This document shows positions 451 to 64,000 of a DNA stretch of 64,000 bases, in pieces. The first letter of the stretch is position 1. Each line of letters begins with the position of its first letter. Position numbers and translations under genes: made by a program. A model generated the notes under the pieces. The model had not been told where the DNA came from and searched no databases. It saw only the letters and a program-made list of their open reading frames with translations. The stretch is from contig QZLH01000069.1 in the NCBI GenBank assembly GCA_003833135.1, positions 110,419-174,418 on the forward strand, in the 5' to 3' direction. This DNA comes from Oehlia diaphana. Lineage: Eukaryota; Glomeromycota; Glomeromycetes; Glomerales; Glomeraceae.

Positions 451-2805
451 ATGGCTGATAGTATTGAGAAACTCAAAAATGACAAAAAGCTTCAAGTCAT
501 GGCAAGTGAAGTTCAAGCTATTTGCGGGGAAAAAAGTTTAGAAGAAATCCTTGTAGACCTTTATAAAACACAAAGCGTAGAACTCACGATTAATCGTATC
601 TTTGATGGAAATGTAACTTTCTTTGCAATTTCCTTATTACAATTTTGAACTTTTATATATTTATTATATGTTTATAATTAAAAGTTCCTTGAAGGAACAC
701 GTTTAGATCCTTTGAAAGTTTCAAAAATTTCATTCCCTATCCACCTATTAAATGAGGATTACGTCACATCGACAAAAAACCGACCAATTAAAACTAATTT
801 TAATAATGAACCTTTATCAACAAATTCTGCAAAGACTAAGTAAGCGATTCGATAATTTTGGAGATTCTTGCTTTAATTCTTTAATTAATTCACGTTTTAT
901 AATAGTTCATCCACCTTTATTACTTCAGAATTTGATGATAAAGTATGTGATAACTTATATAATTAGTTTTATGTAATTTATTTTAATCTCTTACGCCAAA
1001 TTATTATTTAATATTCGAAGCCCAGTTTCAAGAGATTACCATCAGACCTGGAATCAAATTTTATATTTTCCTGTTCCATAGATGATAATATCAAACCAAT
1101 CAAAAATTCAATCTGTTCAACTGAATTTTCAAAAAATCTTTCTCATATTCAAGATAGAAAAGAAAAGTCCTCAATTAATTTGACAACGAAAAAAAACACA
1201 AACAGAAATAGTATAATCGATTTAACTGCCGAAGATGAAGATAGTGATGCGACTTTGAGATCAGAGGATTCACATGAACAAAACTTACAAAAACCAGCGT
1301 ATGAATTTCAGCCTAAAATAATATCGAATGAACATCAATCCAATGCGTTAAAGTTAAATCAAGGAGAAGATAAGAATCTCATAGAAACAACATTTGATAA
1401 TCTAAATTATGATGATTCCGTAACGCATCAGAAACGTAAACGTAAGAACGCAGTGGATCATGCTAATGTAAATCCAAAAATGACAGAAGAAGATAAATTA
1501 GCTGCTAAAAAGATTAAAGAAGCCGAAAAATTGGAGAAGGTATTATTTATACTTTTTTTAAAAATTTATCATTTTAAACTAATTTAATTTAATAACCAGA
1601 AAACTCAGAAGGAACAACAGAAATTGGAACGTAAAAGACAAAAGGAAGAACGCGAGGCCGAGAAAAAAAGGCTTAAACAAATTCAGGAAGTTAACAAAAT
1701 CAAGAGCAATAAACTAGAAATATGTCGAGAATTAATAGTTGATGTTTCAAATGATTTATCGAGTAAATCTCTAGTTGATTACTTACGGGATAATCCAAAA
1801 TATAATTATATGACTATTAACACTTTTCAGCACGATATTCCTAATATTATTAAATGGCGAAGAAAAGTTACTGCAGAATGGGACGATGAACTTTGTGCTT
1901 TCATGCCAATTCCAGAAAAGATTCAGGATGAATCGTTTATATTGATTTATTTTGACGTGTCAGAATTTATCAAACTTATTAAAGATGATAATTTAACAGA
2001 AAATATCAATAGATTACGAGAAACTTTTATCAACAAGAAATTAGTTATATTAATTGAAGGTTATGAAAATTATTGTCGCAAGAGAAAAACACAAATTAAT
2101 CGGAACTTTACCGATGCTGTTCGATTAGGTATAGAAGATCACGATTTCGAAGATATGGAAACCACTAGGGTCCCAACAAAAAAAAAGAAAAAGAATTATG
2201 AGCAAGAACCTGACCTCGAGGAAGTGGAAGAGAAGTTTTTGTGGTTGCAGATTATTGCGAAATGTCTTATTATTCACACAAAAGATTTTGAGGATACAGC
2301 AGAAACGATAGGCATTTTGTCAACTGATATTGCAACTATACCATACAAGTAAATTATCTAATATCCTTTCCAATATTCTTATAGCATTAATTTGATAATT
2401 TTCTCTTTTCATTAGGAATCGTAATTGTGATTTGAACTTTTGGGTTGAGGGACAAGTTCGTGTTGGAACAGGATCTAGTGATACTTGGCTGCGTATGTTA
2501 CAAGAGATTCAACTTGTGACTGAGCCGGTAGCCAGAGGGATTGTTAATATCTATCCAACCGTCAAATCGTTATATGATGCATATAAGAAGTGTTTAACTA
2601 GAGAAGAAGCAGAAAGTCTTTTGTCGTTTGTTGAGGTAATTCTATCTTTCAGTTGTTGATTTTACGTGATAAATTTAACGTATGTATTATTATTTTACAG
2701 ATTCCTAATACTGGTTTTGCGCAACGTCGATGTATTAATAAACCTCTATCAAAAAAGATATATGAGATATTTATGGGAACTGATCCGGATTATATAATTT
2801 CTTAA
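451..2805 (+). CDS. EME1: EME1/MMS4-like crossover junction endonuclease subunit
   Basis: Non-catalytic partner of MUS81 in the structure-selective nuclease that cuts recombination and stalled-fork intermediates in the nucleus. Supported exons: 451-612, 685-839, about 1026-1539, 1600-2348, 2416-2635, 2701-2805, all joining in phase. The N-terminal third is acidic and low in complexity and includes a SIIDLTAEDED stretch that resembles a SUMO-interacting motif. A Lys/Glu-rich coiled coil follows (residues encoded about 1490-1700). Then comes an ERCC4-type nuclease fold (ILIYFDVSEF, KLVILIEGYENY), and a C-terminal helical tail with VTEPVARGIVNIYPTVKSL and GFAQRRCINKPLSKKIYEIF, typical of EME1/MMS4. 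I see no MUS81-type ERKxxD active site, which fits the EME1 side of the dimer. The 840-1025 stretch could hold a further small exon (906-942), but its phase does not fit the next exon, so I left it out. Confidence 0.8.
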
Positions 2806-3562
2806 AAAATATTTATTATGAAGGAATTTTAATTTTATCAAAAGATAATTTTCTTTATCTCAAAGAACTTTATTCAAGATTGCTAATTTGTTAGAAAACC
2901 TTCATTAAGGTCGAAATTTATTATACCATAACTATTTGATAATTTTTATAATACTGGCTTTTTTGATAGTAATATTATATACTTATTTAGTTCTAACAGA
3001 TCAATAAAAAAAAAGAATTCTTTTGAACGAAAGTTTTATAATTAAGCTTAAAATACAAAATTTGAATTCAGTATTTATACCAAAAAATTATTTGTAAAAT
3101 AAACGTTTACGTGCAGTTCTTTTACTCCGCTCCAGACAATAAAATAACTATTTAATGGAATGTAAGAAAAATGTCAATCGTTCAGATTTTTCTTGATATA
3201 ACATGAGATTGGCTATTAACTCTTACAATAACGTAATTATAAGAGATTATGGTACACTTTCCCAAAAAAATCCGTTTTTAAATTACAAACGTCATTCAAA
3301 TGGTTGATTGTGTCGACCACAAAAAATAATTACTTTATATGTTAATAATCACGTACAAAACTTTTAATTCAAGTGATTTACCCACGATCTTATTACTGAA
3401 TACTTTAACTTCTTGTACATGCATACGAAATCTCTGTAAATGCCACAGATCAATTTTTTTTTATGATAAATACGTGGCCTGAAAAAAAATTAATGTAGAT
3501 CTACGGTTACACATATAATTACAGATAATGCATTTTCTTTTCCTCCCAACTCACTATCTACT
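2806..3562. other. Intergenic, no gene seen
   Basis: AT-rich spacer between the EME1-like and DHDDS genes. It presumably holds the EME1 3' UTR and the DHDDS promoter. I see no convincing coding frame, tRNA or repeat. Confidence 0.6.
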
Positions 3563-5165: not shown

Positions 5166-8100
5166 ATTGGTTTCACAATTTGGGTTTTTTGATGTTTATG
5201 TTGGACGTTATACTCTATTTGAGTCAACTAGAGTGTAATGTGTATATATAAACTATATCGTGCCAGGCGTTAGCCTGCTTTTACACCTTTGTTTCTGCGC
5301 TTAAGAAGCTTTCTGGGTTTGCCAAAAAAATCGCCTTCAGGTGGCGCTGTAAATCAGCAGTTAATTTCAGCCAGCTCTACGCTATAATTCTGTCTGATAT
5401 TTAGGATGGAATATCTTGCCTTTCAGTGATTGGATTCTTGCTTGTTAAAAAAAGTATGACGAGAACTTTTCAATAATATCAGAATTGCATGAATTGAATG
5501 GCTAGAATGCTGGATGCTGAACTATTGCGTCCCAAAGTTAGGTTGACTTCATCTGCAAGGAAGCCTGAGAAATCCCTTCATAAAATCTTCCTTCTTAACT
5601 AGAATCATCAATCTAGTTATTCGAATCACTAGACATTGTGATCTAAATAATCTTAAAAATTTCTAACAATGTTTAAACAAGATTAAATTTCTTTGTCTAC
5701 TGCCGAGCTAAACTTCTTCAGCAATTATTTGGAGAGGTTATACCTGTTACCATTAGATTCAAAATTCATTTGGTCAATATTTATTATTGAATAAAGATGA
5801 ATCTTTTCATGTTTGACTAGTCGAATAAATTATTCTTATTGTTTTTACTTTAGCAACAACTTGTTGCATTGTACTTTTAAATGTTTTTAAATCTAAGATC
5901 ATTTATTTTGAGTGCTAATGTGGTTTTGCGTTTTTTTCATCAAAGATGATCTATTAGTCTTCAGTCATGTAAACATAAGACTGCACTTGACAAGTTAATG
6001 ATGCATTTTAGGAACGACCAATCTGATAAAGGTTTGATGGCGCCTCGATGAGCAATTGTTTTTAGATACAAATACACAGAGCATTTCACAAAGATCTTAA
6101 TCGTTTCGAGGCGAATATCTTCATTCATAAAGTTGAGTACCGCCCATCATTTCAAGTGCGAGCGGTTGATACATGATACGTATATAATCTTTGAAGACGT
6201 ATGTTAGTCTACTTATTTGCCTTCCGTCTCGGGTGAACAACGATGGAGTGAGTTTTTCATAGTATACTTAGTAAAGACGAAGCAAAAAATAACATAGACG
6301 GACTTATTGAATAATGCCTGCAATGAGGCGACTTACTCAAGTAATTCCTGTTCACGGCTCGAAGTAGCGGTTGACACGGGCGGTTCGACTAAGAAATGAA
6401 TATGTTCCTTGGGAGGAAAGTATTTTCGAAATCCTTTTTATTAAAAGGAGCTCGTCCTTGTCCTGGAGTTAGAGATTGCTTAATCATCATACTAAATGTT
6501 ATAACACCAAATAATTTATCCCAAATTTCTTCTTATTAGAATTTGATATTGCCTCCAAAAATTCTTTTATTAATATAACAATAGAAGGCAAAAGCCTGGG
6601 AGACAAATTATTTTTTGCTAAAAATAAACAGCCCACATTATACCAATAATATGATTTGTATTTGCATTAGATGAAACAAATTCTTTTGTAATGATTCCAT
6701 ATTCCATTTGTATTCTTACATGTTCTAGTTTATCTGCATCTTTATGATCCTCAGTATGTGTATGTTCTTTAATTGCTGAGTTTTTTTGAAATATTTGTTA
6801 CTCCTGTAGCAAACTTATTCTTTTTTCTTACGCTGCATACATAATATACTATACAATATATTTTGATTTTTCACTCATATTGTTTATGCGGGATTTTTTA
6901 ATGTCTTTTGTTAGAATTATCTTTAATAATCGAAGTTAGTCGGCCGTTTCTACGTATTGTAACAATGACATAAAAATGCGAATTTTTTTTTTTTTTTTTT
7001 TAAAAAAAAAAATTCCATTTATTTGGCGATACAAAAAAAAAATGATCTTTTTCCACGCAAATACCCTGTCACACCAGCGACTTAAACGTAAGATATTATA
7101 ATAACCGCAATATAACTAATTGTATTTTATAATTATATGGAAGTTGGTAATACATATTTGTACACAAAAATAATGTATGAACGTAATTAATTAAATCATT
7201 TTCATATTTTATGATGATTTCACTTCATGTTATTTTCTTCTTTTTATTTTTTCGTAATAGTTAGTATCTGAAAGAATCTGAAAGAGAGTAAAAAAAAAAT
7301 TAAAAAAAAAATTATTATATTTTGATGACGACTAATGTGACTTTTTGTTCAACACAATTAGTAGTAGCGATGTCAGCTGTTAACTTTTTTTTTCAATGTA
7401 ATTGAAATTCTTTAAAAACAAAACGATTATGTTTTATTAGAATGATCACACGTCAAAATATATTGTTGTTAAACAAAAGATATATTTAAAATTACTTACA
7501 GTATTATATAATCATTTAAAAAATATGCATTTATTCCTTTCTATAGTCACAATTATAATATTACATTTTTATCAGTACATTCTGCTTGGTACTACTGCAT
7601 TTGTAGGTTGCTTACATGATACAATATTATTATACAAAATAAAATTTTAAAAAAATAAAATCTAATAAAAAAGCTTTAGTAAAGAATTTGGTTAATCTTA
7701 ACCGGGAGAAATTAACCGGTAAAATGGATTGACTTGGAATTTTCTTTTTAATTTTAGGAAATAAGAAATATATATAATAATAATTAAAATAAAAGAATAA
7801 AAAAACAATAAGAAATATATAATAAAAAGAATAAAAAACAATAAGATCTTTTATTATAATATAATATAAATAATTTAATATATACATTCCAGTGATATAT
7901 AATTGGATTGGCAGGGATTTTATGAATGGGGAAAATCCTGATCCCCGAAACCTTGTGAACAAACAAATAAAGGATCCGGTTTTTTTATATAGTTAAATAT
8001 TATTGGAAATAATAATATCTATAGATTACTTTAAGCGATTGTTAAAAATAATGATATATTCGGACGAAAAGGCTAATAATAAAGGAATTAAACCTTCCAA

Positions 8101-33635: not shown

Positions 33636-35237
33636 ATGTATAAAACTATTTTATTGTTACCTATATTAGTACTTTTAATAATAAAAAAAGCATTAGCGCA
33701 GAATTATGCAATACCAGCACCGGATATAGCAGATTTTCCACAACCAAATTCTACTCAAGGAAACTACGAATACACAAAATTGTTAGCATATTCGTTATAT
33801 TTTTATGAAGCACAACGTAGTGGAAAATTACCATTAGACAATCGAGTATCTTGGAGACATGATTCTGCATTAGAAGATGGTAAAGATGTTAATTTAGATT
33901 TAACAGGAGGGTATTATGATGCAGGAGATCATTTGAAATTCTCGTTCCCGTTATCATGGTCTCTTACTTCCTTGTCATGGGGAGCTTACGAATGGTATGA
34001 TGGATATCAATCTGCTCAACAAACTACCCGAATAAGAGATATGATCAAATGGGGTACTGATTGGTTAATTAAAGCGCATTCTGATCAACAAGTCTTATAT
34101 GTTATGATCGGGGATGAGAAAGTCGATCATAATTATTGGGGACCTGATACTGGTATACCATTACCAAGACCCTCATTGAGTATAAATGGCACTAAGCTTG
34201 GAACTGATGCAGCAGCTGAAGCTGCTGCCGCGATGGCAGCGGCGTCATTATTCTTTAAGGATAAAGTACAAGACATAGATTATTCTAATACATTATATCT
34301 TCATGCTCAACAATTATATGATTTTGCGAGCATAAAACCATTTACCAAATATCAATCATCTGTTAATCAAATCGAAGGTTTATATGCATCATCAGGTTTT
34401 GCAGATGAGTTAGTGTGGAGTAGTCTTTGGTTATATAAATTAACTAAAAATGCAACATATTTTGATCTTGCAGTAAGTTATTTCAACGAGTTTAAATTAT
34501 CTGGAAGTAATAATGTCATTAATTGGGATGGTAAAGCTGGTGTTGTATATATTCTATTTGTTCAATGTGCAACAGAATTAAACAGAGATGATGTTAATAA
34601 TTGGAAGGCTGAAGCTGAGAGATATTTGGATACTATTGCTTCGCAATCTTCAAATCAATGTAAATTAACTAAAGGTGGATTATTTTATTGTGACGGAGAT
34701 AGTGATGCTGCTTCATTGAATCCCGCGTTAAATGCTGCTTTCGCATCGTTATTATATTCACCATTAAGTTCAACACCTTCAAAAAAAGATAGTTATATTA
34801 ACTTTGCCATGTCACAAATCAATTATTTATTGGGAAATAATCCGGTGAAAACACCTTATGTTATTGGTGTTCATCCAAATTCGCCTCAAAATCCTCATCA
34901 TTCAGGTGCGCAGGGGGGAAACGATATGAATGGACCAACTCTTAATATTCTCTATGGAGGCATTGTAGGTGGTCCCGATAAACATGATGATTATGAGGAC
35001 AAGAGATCTAATTATATTCAATCTGAAGTTGCTTTAGATTATAATGCTCCTTTTCAAAATTTAATGGCTTATCAAGTTATTAATTCTAAGGATGATCCTT
35101 ATTATGTTACTTTACCTCCCGGAAGACCATCTCGAACAAATGTTGCTCTTATCGTTTCATTGGTTATTGTTGCTATTGTAATTATTATTGGTATTTGTGG
35201 TTTTATTTATTGGAGGAAAACTCAAGGGCAGAAATAA
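33636..35237 (+). CDS. Glycoside hydrolase family 9 (endoglucanase-like), membrane-anchored
   Basis: A single uninterrupted exon of 533 aa, unlike most genes here. It has a signal peptide (residues 1-21, cleavage likely after ALA), then a GH9 (alpha/alpha)6-barrel: YTKLLAYSLYFYEAQRSGKLP, WRHDSALEDG, LTGGYYDAGDHLKFSFP with the catalytic DAGD at 95-98, WGTDWLIKAH, INYLLGNNP, and DKRSNYIQSEVALDYNAPF with the proton donor Glu464. A C-terminal transmembrane helix (about 505-526) and short basic tail YWRKTQGQK predict anchoring at the plasma membrane with the enzyme outside. The PHHR motif of the family reads PHHS, so the Arg that contacts substrate is missing. The substrate would be a beta-1,4-glucan by family, but activity is not certain. 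Confidence 0.92.
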   Translation: MYKTILLLPILVLLIIKKALAQNYAIPAPDIADFPQPNSTQGNYEYTKLLAYSLYFYEAQRSGKLPLDNRVSWRHDSALEDGKDVNLDLTGGYYDAGDHLKFSFPLSWSLTSLSWGAYEWYDGYQSAQQTTRIRDMIKWGTDWLIKAHSDQQVLYVMIGDEKVDHNYWGPDTGIPLPRPSLSINGTKLGTDAAAEAAAAMAAASLFFKDKVQDIDYSNTLYLHAQQLYDFASIKPFTKYQSSVNQIEGLYASSGFADELVWSSLWLYKLTKNATYFDLAVSYFNEFKLSGSNNVINWDGKAGVVYILFVQCATELNRDDVNNWKAEAERYLDTIASQSSNQCKLTKGGLFYCDGDSDAASLNPALNAAFASLLYSPLSSTPSKKDSYINFAMSQINYLLGNNPVKTPYVIGVHPNSPQNPHHSGAQGGNDMNGPTLNILYGGIVGGPDKHDDYEDKRSNYIQSEVALDYNAPFQNLMAYQVINSKDDPYYVTLPPGRPSRTNVALIVSLVIVAIVIIIGICGFIYWRKTQGQK

Positions 35238-61191: not shown

Positions 61192-61597
61192 TAAAGAGAT
61201 AAAAGGAAAAAAACGAAAAATTATTTGCGTGCACCAAAGACTTTATATACATTATAAAATATACGGCCGATCATCGCGTTAAAACTTACGCGTTTTTTTA
61301 ACACGTGTGTAATAAATTTGGCCCGATATAAAATGATAACGTCACGAGTTCACATAAGCGAACAACTGAAAATTGAAACAGACAGACTTGTTCACTTGGG
61401 ACAGGATAACTTAAATTATTTATACACTTTAATTCGAATAAAAAATACAAATTATTATCTGCATTCTTATATAACTTTAGTGGGTAAGTTTCTTATGTAG
61501 AATACAACAATACAACCGAATATCAAAGGTATTTAACGAAAAAAGTTTCATTAATACTACGCCTACAATTAAACTTATATATTCCTTGTCAAACCTC
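61192..61597. other. Upstream flank of the HMG gene and boundary of the transposon relic
   Basis: AT-rich. A plus-strand frame (61318-61500) has no recognisable features. If the relic at 61598-62930 carried a guide RNA, its right-end/omega RNA sequence would be expected just below 61598. Confidence 0.35.
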
Positions 61598-62420
61598 TCA
61601 TTTTTGATCATTTCCATAAGGAAATAACATGTTCTGCAAGGATCAAGATCCCAGGGGTAGGTCCCAGCGTTTGACTTTTAATTTTGTTTGGATTGTAACA
61701 GGGTAAGATAGCAAAGAAGTATATTGCGAGCCCCATTGACGTCTCGATCAAGCTCAGTTGAACAGCTGGGGCAACAGAATCCGCCCAATTTTTGATGAAT
61801 ATATATGGATATATCCACAGTGCTCGCAAGTTTTGCTAGTATACTCCTCAGTACATAGAATTACTTGACACCATGGATGCTCACGAACCTTATGTAGAAG
61901 ATATTGGCGGAATCAGAAGTGTAACCATGTTAGCATCTCTGTGCAGTCTTAGATCGAATCTGTCGTTTTCCACGCATAACCATTCCTTTTGTCTTAAACT
62001 CAGGTAATAAAATAATACGATAATTTTGGCACAACCCATTTGGCAAGTTTATGGTGGCAATCATTAATAAGACAACGGAATTTTTTATGTATACGAAGCA
62101 TGACCCTGCGAAGCTTGTAGCATTTTCGTTTGTGTACTTTTCCATGAAAAGTGTCATGCTTGCTTTGAATTTTATCATATATGTGAGAAGCTGATATTTT
62201 AGGAAGAAGTGTATACACTCCTTTAGATCTATCCCAATGTTTTGATAAAATTGTGATAGATTGTTGTTGATCTTTCTTGAATAAATGACTACTTTTTCGC
62301 AGCAAATTTTGATAGATGTACTTTTAGTAAATCATTCATTGCTTCGTCACAAATATCATAGGGAGTTTTAAGGACCCATTTAAATTCAGTGTTTTTAGTG
62401 TTTTTGAAGTTTTTGGCATT
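61598..62420 (-). pseudogene. TnpB/Fanzor-like RNA-guided nuclease, decayed
   Basis: Fragments in three shifting frames, in correct family order from high to low coordinate: EFKWVLKTPYDICDEAMNDLLK (about 62390-62325), KKDQQQSITILSKHWDRSKGVYTLLPK (about 62280-62200), SKHDTFHGKVHKRKCYKLRR..LRIHKKFRCLINDCHHKLAKW (about 62170-62030), NYRIILLPEFKT with the RuvC-II Glu (about 62015), FRQYLLHKVREHPWCQVILC (about 61910-61850), EYTSKTCEHCGYIH and CCPSC zinc ribbon, and DRDVNGARNILL with the RuvC-III Asp (about 61755-61725). It ends LQNMLFPYGNDQK then TGA at 61600-61598. At least two frameshifts and one stop break the frame. The segment between YTLLPK and SKHDTFHG, which should hold the RuvC-I Asp (D-P-G), is missing, so it cannot be active. 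IS607-associated TnpB/Fanzor1 family by motif pattern; not tested by search. Confidence 0.8.
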
Positions 62421-62617
62421 AAGACATTTGCCTGCAGATCTTTTTTGTTGATGCCCTTTTTTTTGACTGCAGTAAGACATCGGTTGTAAGTCCATTGGAC
62501 TGTTCCATTTTCTGAGTTTTAATTGCTCTTCTTGTGTAGATACGGTGTGTCTTGCCTGCTGGAATCTTGGAAATTTTGATCTTTTGGGTTTGGATAGCTT
62601 CTTGTCTTCTTCAGTTT

Positions 62618-62930
62618 GCAGCAAAGCATAATCCATTATGTCTTGCTATAAATATCATGATGATTGAGATTAAGTTTTCTGCGAGTTCTCCTACTTTATT
62701 GCTTTACGCACTGACATCTGTACCAAATATCATGAGCTGAATGCCATTCTTTTCAAAGATCAATTCCATAAGCTTAAATCCAAAATGATATAATTGATCC
62801 TTTTGGGTAACCACCACTTTCTTAATTCCCTTCTTGTGTATTTGTTTCAGAAGGGCAACAAAACCCATATGTTTCCAGTTGAGTTCTAAATCAATATTGC
62901 TGATGATTTTATATTCTGGGTAATATTATT
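62618..62930 (-). pseudogene. IS607-like serine recombinase (TnpA), decayed
   Basis: Read downward, the frame gives YYPEYKIISNIDLELNWKHMG, FVALLKQIHKKGIKKVVVTQKDQLYHFGFKLMELIFEKNGIQL, DVSA, stop (62706-62704), SNKVGELAENLISIIMIFIARHNGL. This matches the core of small serine recombinases of IS607 TnpA type: the IGSGLNWKR-like block, the KDRLxRFGF-like block, and the ELxEDLxSIIxxFSAR helix. The N-terminal part with the catalytic Ser (YARVSS-like) should lie at about 62935-63000, but that stretch has several stops and only faint similarity (KVSR). An internal TAA and the lost N-terminus make it a relic. It sits directly upstream of the TnpB-like relic, the order of autonomous IS607 elements. Confidence 0.75.
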
Positions 62931-64000
62931 AGAGATTTGTGATCTATTGTTTAAGGAGAATTCTGCTTACTTATAATAAAAGTTACTGTCCTTTTATTAA
63001 TGATTTTTACCTTACTTTTTTCTCTAAAATTTCCTGATCTGCAAAGAAATTTATATGATTTTTACTTTAAACCTGGGGTGATCTATTTTATAAGTAAGTG
63101 GGGTTCTGTTTAAGGTCATTTTGCTGATACTTTAAACTGATTTTGGTATAATAGATCTTGATCTTTTGTATATTAGTGATTAAATATAGGCGTTTTCTAC
63201 CAGATGTTTTATTGTTTTTAACAATAGCAATCTTTTTATAATTATTCTTATAAAGTTTCAACTGAGATGTCATATGTTTCTTGAATTTTACTTGTGCTTT
63301 TGTAAGTATCCAATTGTAAAAAAAGGCGGCTTTGTTAAAAAACAAGAGCTACCTGATAGAATTAAATCACTTTTCCTTATATTGATAATAAAACATGGCG
63401 ATTTGCACAAAACTGTATTAATAATCAAGTAATTTATTTGTAATATGTAAGGTTGCTTGCCTAAACCTCTCCAAAATCTTATGATTAGTTTCTCGGCAAG
63501 GTTTCAGCAGTTTCAGCATTTATAATAAGTTTGTCGGGTTTCGCTTTTCTCCAGAGTTTTGCCAACTTTTTAAAAAAATTTCATATAGTTTTGGCAAAGT
63601 ATTGCTATTTTGGCATTTCTCCAACTTGCAAAATCCTCTAGTTTCTCCAGCAACCTTAGTAATATGAAAATTGTGGTTTATTCTAGATTTGATTTTTTGT
63701 ACCACAGTATGAGATAATGGAGATATTAAATCAACATGCTTAGTAGGTAGGTCACCTGAATTAATCAAAGAATTTATAATTCTTCTGGTAATTGTCGCGT
63801 TGTGTAGATGAATCAAGGGCTCACTAAGCTGATTCACGTTCATTAGATTCTAACCAATTTCTGGATTCTTTATAATAAAACCGATCAACCTAGACAAATA
63901 CTTGGAAAATTTAATAGTATTCTTCAAAATTTCCATTGATTTCATTCATCCCACCAAGTCGCCTTGCAGCCTTAACATCAGATGAGCCCGCAATTCACCT
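62931..64000. other. Unassigned flank with lineage-specific frames
   Basis: Two minus-strand frames, 63345-63088 (Lys-rich; FNKAAFFYNWILTKAQVKF) and 63843-63520 (NVNQLSEPLIHLHNATITRR, HVDLISPLSHTVVQ), are longer than expected by chance in such AT-rich DNA, but I do not recognise them. The first could be a displaced piece of the TnpB N-terminus; the second could be part of a decayed gene running off the right edge. Both are low confidence and no other feature is seen. Confidence 0.3.

Follow-up and report, generated by a model that had tools for sequence, protein, structure and literature searches.

A decayed IS607-type element with a Fanzor2 relic in Oehlia diaphana and an apparently selected overlap of tnpA and tnpB in its clade

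The minus strand of the window (the whole 64,000-nucleotide stretch of Oehlia diaphana DNA analysed here) carries a decayed IS607-type element, in which a TnpA relic is followed by a frameshifted TnpB/Fanzor2 relic. We put the probability that this locus is a dead, decaying copy of a Glomeromycotina IS607-type DNA transposon at roughly 93%. The original prediction of an IS607-type relic (serine recombinase plus TnpB/Fanzor-like nuclease) in a fungal genome holds for families, decay and host alike; the span it gave, 61598..62930, located the element correctly and fell slightly short of the relic, which extends over ~61,621-62,963 when aligned to relatives. The element is dead and belongs to an already known kind, and the part most deserving specialist attention is a deep, apparently selected overlap of its two genes.

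Transposase and nuclease remains at the locus

The TnpA relic (62635..62925, minus strand) comprises part of the catalytic domain and the C-terminal part of an IS607-type serine recombinase, with one in-frame stop. The translation of 62704-62925(-) matched NF033518 (transpos_IS607, NCBIfam) over positions 89-152 of 187 (E 3.2e-12), a fragment match scoring 46.4 bits where the cut-off for the complete protein is 110, and reading through the single stop extended it to profile positions 87-179 (window 62635-62922). The same piece matched solved IS607-type serine recombinases, the best being 3lhf (E 7.1e-8). These matches bear out the predicted recombinase; Pfam PF00239 alone gave a non-significant E of 0.22 at the locus. 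No match to the HTH and catalytic serine (NF033518 profile 1-86) was found there, and the N-terminal half of TnpA has, by this measure, been lost from the window copy; copies on contigs C81, C576, C187 and C267 do match the HTH/N-terminal part.

Aligned to relatives, the TnpB relic spans 62951 to ~61654 on the minus strand in three frames with many stops. Its N-terminal segment lies over the TnpA relic in the +1 frame (62601..62951), matching a Rhizophagus clarus protein (P0114) at 52% over 118 residues (E 2e-32), and 62951-62283 as a whole aligns with P0114 residues 58-242 (E 4e-46). The N-terminal helical part (RKW, KTPYDICDEAMNDLLK) follows in two frames at 62283..62645 (ORF 62289-62645), where residues 9-120 of another relative, P0003, correspond to 62603-62283 (E 3e-20). 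Alignment with P0003 likewise places the middle part (QQSITILSKHW; HIYDKIQSKHDT...HHKLAKW) at 62000..62323. P0003 residues 236-363 correspond to 62188-61805 (E 3e-55) and its residues ~159-235 have no window counterpart, ~77 codons including RuvC-I (DPG aspartate) being deleted at ~62,188. The RuvC-II stretch (LCQNYRIILLPEFKT...) occupies 61930..62046, with P0003 aligning from its residue 283 at 62046 and P0114 residues 412-430 at 62034-61978. The TNB (target-nucleic-acid-binding) domain is split across two frames, the first half (TSKTCEHCGYIH) at 61754..61912 and the second, with RuvC-III (CCPSC, DRDVNGARNI), at 61678..61860, both on the minus strand; each half exceeds the Pfam cut-off for PF07282 (E 6e-6 and 4e-7, respectively), and PF01385 was not significant in the TnpB relic (E 0.38).

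Significant profile matches (NF033518, PF07282) to both predicted families are therefore present on the minus strand at 61.6-62.9 kb, and the motifs named beforehand are all there: the CEHC/CCPSC zinc ribbon halves, DRDVNGARNI, LLPEFKT and the recombinase core helix. The window copy thereby retains the TNB zinc ribbon and the RuvC-III RD motif of Fanzor2, in two frames. The looser label "Fanzor-type" can be refined: judged by the RuvC-I DPG of its closest listed relatives (P0001-P0004), which is also carried by genome copies C66 and C576, the relic is of Fanzor2 type, and it groups with eukaryotic Fanzor2 proteins in the tree described below. Counting against this identity, the window copy itself has neither the DPG stretch that defines Fanzor2 nor the catalytic serine of TnpA. 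A further Fanzor2 trait, an alternative position of the RuvC glutamate (Ealt), is named in PMC10711439.

Homology continues past the TnpB stop at 61621..61677 (minus strand), the alignment with P0013 running to residue 493 of that protein and to 61621 of the window; this stretch is common to the C-terminus of a Diversispora gene model and is probably the start of the right end. No folding signal was obtained for the window right end (61560-61790; z -0.55), and the left end and crossover dinucleotide of this copy were looked for and not found. IS607 elements lack terminal inverted repeats and insert where a dinucleotide matches.

Homology, gene order, overlap, decay and relatives were observed directly, and we infer the activities of a living element from its family. 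Its TnpA, a serine recombinase bearing an HTH at the N-terminus, would mobilise the element in the form of double-stranded DNA, and its Fanzor2 nuclease, guided by a right-end RNA, would cut matching DNA; the N-terminus of that nuclease would be translated in the +1 frame from within tnpA. Later decay has removed the N-terminal half of TnpA and the RuvC-I block and added frameshifts and stops, so that the window copy should be unable to move or cut.

Relatives and other copies in the genome

At E <= 1e-3 we found 371 relatives of the TnpB relic, the best 120 of which were listed. Among the 120 are proteins of Diversispora, Gigaspora, Scutellospora, Rhizophagus and Lipomyces, together with uninterrupted metagenomic relatives of 406-452 residues that match at 73-78% over about half of the query. 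P0001-P0004, likewise uninterrupted, carry DPG, LLPEF or LLPKF, and the zinc ribbon. Scans of viral contigs and genome contigs with single sequences gave no relative; an alignment of relatives used as query succeeded where these had failed and recovered 29 viral-contig loci. A tree of 129 rows placed the window copy in a 10-row set (support 99) together with proteins from Diversispora and from metagenomes; neither this set nor the next (25 rows, support 97) includes any viral row. The majority of viral rows group in a single set, with L061/L065 and L059 apart. Since the tree was built by a quick method with a midpoint root and has several long branches, it leaves the element's origin undecided.

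P0011, which is more distantly related (58% over 47% of the query), was predicted to fold with a mean pLDDT of 84.6. Its residues ~24-78 are predicted to be folded (block means 65-93), and the best solved match to the predicted fold is the Mimivirus Fanzor2 complex 9b0l (E 1e-24, TM 0.65 and 0.73). Two observations concern the contigs on which relatives were found. L088 (CAIRAF010000105.1), a 3.5 kb contig from an uncultured bacterium bin, has uninterrupted TnpA and TnpB and falls among the metagenomic rows in the tree; it may be misbinned eukaryotic sequence. At L078, L079, L080 and L085, a terminase-like ORF (6439-7158, minus strand) lies near the IS607 pair, and those IMG/VR contigs may for this reason be phages rather than giant viruses.

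It had been expected that intact relatives might exist elsewhere in the genome. Across 108.8 Mb in 1672 contigs (the window lies on C69), we found broken TnpB-type copies on at least 23 contigs at E <= 0.01, using the TNB profile and two TnpB pieces as queries; the TNB profile alone gave 16 matches on 14 contigs at the same threshold. TnpA matches occur on 11 contigs, those on C1012 (E 0.003) and C94 (E 0.02) being weak. None of the 15 NF033518 matches exceeds the cut-off and no complete copy is present among the matches listed; the uninterrupted relatives are those of metagenomes. TnpA and TnpB occur together on one strand on seven contigs (C576, C69 with the window, C81, C66, C187, C28 and C813), with tnpA upstream of tnpB in the window and the six others. 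On C267 (L049), a TnpA HTH piece on the minus strand adjoins a TnpB piece on the plus strand, perhaps an inverted copy.

DNA comparison separates the copies into C482/C81/C7/C28/C813/C73/C66, C545/C3/C202/C267, C576/C187, and the window with C35; the C576/C187 lineage is also linked to the C482/C81 lineage at ~67%. IS607/Fanzor2 elements are hence documented in an arbuscular mycorrhizal fungus, in several lineages within one genome. Aligning the copies, which had been proposed for finding element ends and a conserved right-end RNA, yielded a shared right terminus and structure in a lineage other than that of the window. Four of six C482/C81-lineage copies inspected end in CAATCCATCC, C73 has CAATCAATCC and C7 an altered form. 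The five copies that could be cut at the terminus (C482, C81, C66, C73 and C813; L021, L022, L030, L023 and L029) share a hairpin-rich consensus that starts within the TnpB coding end (GCTCGGGG..CTCCGGGC). Its consensus structure scored -12.46, compared with -0.54 (sd 0.94) in column-shuffled alignments, a lenient control, none of 200 being as low. We regard this structure as a candidate guide-RNA scaffold.

A TnpB segment apparently encoded within tnpA

Gene order at the locus is as predicted, TnpA and then TnpB; the two relics do not lie side by side, since the genes overlap. An N-terminal TnpB segment, PFW...LWLP...SWFS, lies in the +1 frame within tnpA in the window relic and in its relatives. 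In the window it reads PF*N...WWLP...SS*Y, the tryptophans of PFW and SWY having turned into stops, and a strict pattern found the motif in 4 of 12 genome copies scanned (C81, C28, C576 and C187), each time over the copy's own TnpA match. Among 22 distinct rows from viral contigs and L088, TnpA was identified by pattern in 20 (the exceptions are L059 and L084); each of these 20 has its TnpB frame at +1 with respect to tnpA, and the frame stays open far into that gene. At least 90 residues precede the first helix motif in 33 of the 120 listed relatives; PFW occurs in 21 of these 33, a SWFS-like motif in 18 and both in 15.

This openness exceeds what tnpA coding would give by itself. In all 18 elements compared (17 viral loci and L088, leaving out duplicates, L059, L078, L083 and L084; L068 is close to L066, and tnpA of L060 is only a 183-base fragment), the open run in the TnpB frame covers 60-206 codons and is matched by 0-5.2% of 1000 synonymous-codon shuffles, and openness in the +2 frame falls below 5% in one of the 18 (L072). 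Residue conservation in the TnpB frame of 17 elements (the openness set minus L060 and L068, plus L089) was 0.646 vs -0.076 (sd 0.025) in 200 shuffles, with peaks at PYWN, LWLPT and SWFS. The +2 frame gave 0.134 vs -0.266 (sd 0.033); relatedness of the elements or carried-over third-base constraint must account for part of this excess.

Third bases at four-fold sites of tnpA were compared in 18 elements, the 17 just described and L084. They agree in 806 of 1329 comparisons (61%) over the PYW..SWFS stretch and in 303 of 1001 (30%) over the HTH part, with 241/665 between the two and 142/291 after the segment. Agreement was higher in the overlap than upstream in 139 of 153 element pairs, lower in 13 and tied in 1; these pairs are non-independent, and random disjoint pairings average 8.2 of 9 with the overlap higher. 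Ten other bacterial IS607 elements were fetched from 40 listed rows, and excess tnpA openness was absent from all nine with readable TnpA (DLG at RuvC-I was read in three of the nine; no TnpB was found in L095, L097 and L098, and that of L100 is doubtful). Their four-fold agreement was 32/137 (23%) in the segment, 63/224 in the HTH part, 29/145 between and 8/32 after. The DPG TnpB of the cyanobacterium Trichormus has a 150-codon overlap run that 0 of 500 shuffles reach. In this element (L089, Trichormus variabilis ATCC 29413 plasmid A), TnpB is annotated from 1765 and its frame is open from 1237; the upstream part holds PYWN...NSWFS, which is absent from the annotation.

Openness, residue conservation and four-fold conservation together speak for dual coding under selection within the DPG (Fanzor2/pro-Fanzor) clade. 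We consider it probable that throughout this clade (cyanobacterial, viral-contig and fungal) a segment of ~55 residues with a predicted fold is encoded in the +1 frame within tnpA, is selected in both frames and is a working part of the nuclease, that transposase and nuclease are thereby tied physically to one another, and that the true TnpB start has been missed in at least one bacterial annotation, that of Trichormus. The alternative for the overlap is that PFW...LWLP...SWFS is a wrong-frame by-product of TnpA conservation and the real TnpB begins downstream. P0001-P0004, the closest listed relatives and known as predicted proteins, do begin only after the segment, and so does the Trichormus TnpB as annotated; only the 33 listed relatives noted above have enough residues ahead of the first helix motif, and the +2 frame is also above its shuffles. 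Against this, synonymous shuffles of tnpA fail to yield the openness or the motif, four-fold third bases are conserved over the segment without comparable constraint in upstream tnpA, and the nine other bacterial elements have neither openness excess nor third-base conservation. Moreover, L059 retains SPYW..NSWFTV although its three forward frames over 2400-3300 yield no readable TnpA, and the Mimivirus protein has a part similar to LWLP...SWFS. We therefore think a by-product unlikely, and under the favoured reading of selected dual coding the retention where no TnpA is readable is why the segment would be a working part of the nuclease. Fanzor2 and pro-Fanzor constructs made from the downstream start may miss this conserved segment, and so deep an overlap would account for the joint travel of both genes in the DPG clade, whereas other IS607 genes are only adjacent.

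Known systems and the origin of the copy

In the Fanzor2 elements carried by eukaryotes and by giant viruses (Bao and Jurka 2013, PMC3627910), an IS607-type TnpA likewise stands beside a TnpB-like protein, and Mimivirus Fanzor2 (PDB 9b0l) is linked to the present family by the fold and the motif described above; unlike known Fanzor2 elements, the window copy is broken and lies in a Glomeromycotina tree group. Table 1 of PMC3627910 lists Fanzor2 in some yeasts and not in Glomeromycotina. A passage of PMC10432273 reports that Fz2 occurs broadly in fungi, so fungal Fanzor2 as such is not new. The DPG RuvC-I and the IS607 TnpA are shared with the pro-Fanzor IS607 elements, most of which come from cyanobacteria (Yoon et al. 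2023, PMC10711439), and the Trichormus plasmid element shares both and the deep overlap; it differs in its bacterial host and in a TnpB ~29% identical to P0118, a relative used as query. In other bacterial IS607 elements (10 plasmid loci), tnpA again precedes tnpB on a single strand wherever the two are annotated, but their annotated TnpB starts at most 23 bases inside tnpA or after it. Frequent overlap of IS607 genes is already in print. We found no published description of the conserved segment PFW...LWLP...SWFS, and the word "overlap" is absent from the main texts of PMC10711439 and PMC3627910. No paper was found on Fanzor in Glomeromycotina or Gigaspora or on IS607 in arbuscular mycorrhizal fungi, although supplementary tables may list Glomeromycotina Fanzors; a single review came up for Fanzor together with Rhizophagus and another single one for TnpB in Rhizophagus irregularis, and the main text of a R. 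irregularis transposon paper (PMC11075540) has no IS607 or TnpB.

The locus is represented in the public record by P0087, hypothetical protein C1646_668209 [Rhizophagus diaphanus], which consists of pieces that, by eye, are letter-identical to window translations; the host is accordingly this arbuscular mycorrhizal fungus or one very closely related to it. Its gene model (window 62289-62925, minus strand) fuses relic pieces in the TnpA and TnpB frames, and this public R. diaphanus gene model is accordingly a fusion of transposon relics. As the model joins the pieces by predicted introns and could be expressed, its presence in the record would fit domestication of an IS607 element into a host gene; with the TnpB relic in three frames with many stops, and RuvC-I and the N-terminal half of TnpA lost, we regard domestication as very unlikely. 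Arrival of the copy within an integrated giant-virus genome, as part of an endogenous viral region, would agree with the 29 loci in viral contigs and with the predicted match of the P0011 fold to giant-virus transposases. The window neighbours, an ATP synthase fragment and an HMG-box gene, are instead of fungal type, and the window TnpB sits in the two supported sets without a viral row (in the quick, midpoint-rooted tree), which makes such an arrival very unlikely. The earlier suggestion of entry from prokaryotes or large DNA viruses gains no support here as regards a virus as direct donor, because such relatives as were found in viral contigs stand further from the copy than the fungal ones do. 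A dead Glomeromycotina transposon copy is thus the reading we retain.

Elsewhere in the window, an uninterrupted 533-residue ORF on the plus strand (33636-35237) shows a match spanning the entire glycosyl hydrolase family 9 domain (PF00759, E 5e-131). Arbuscular mycorrhizal fungi are poor in plant-cell-wall-degrading enzymes, and a full-length GH9 gene may be of interest for that reason.
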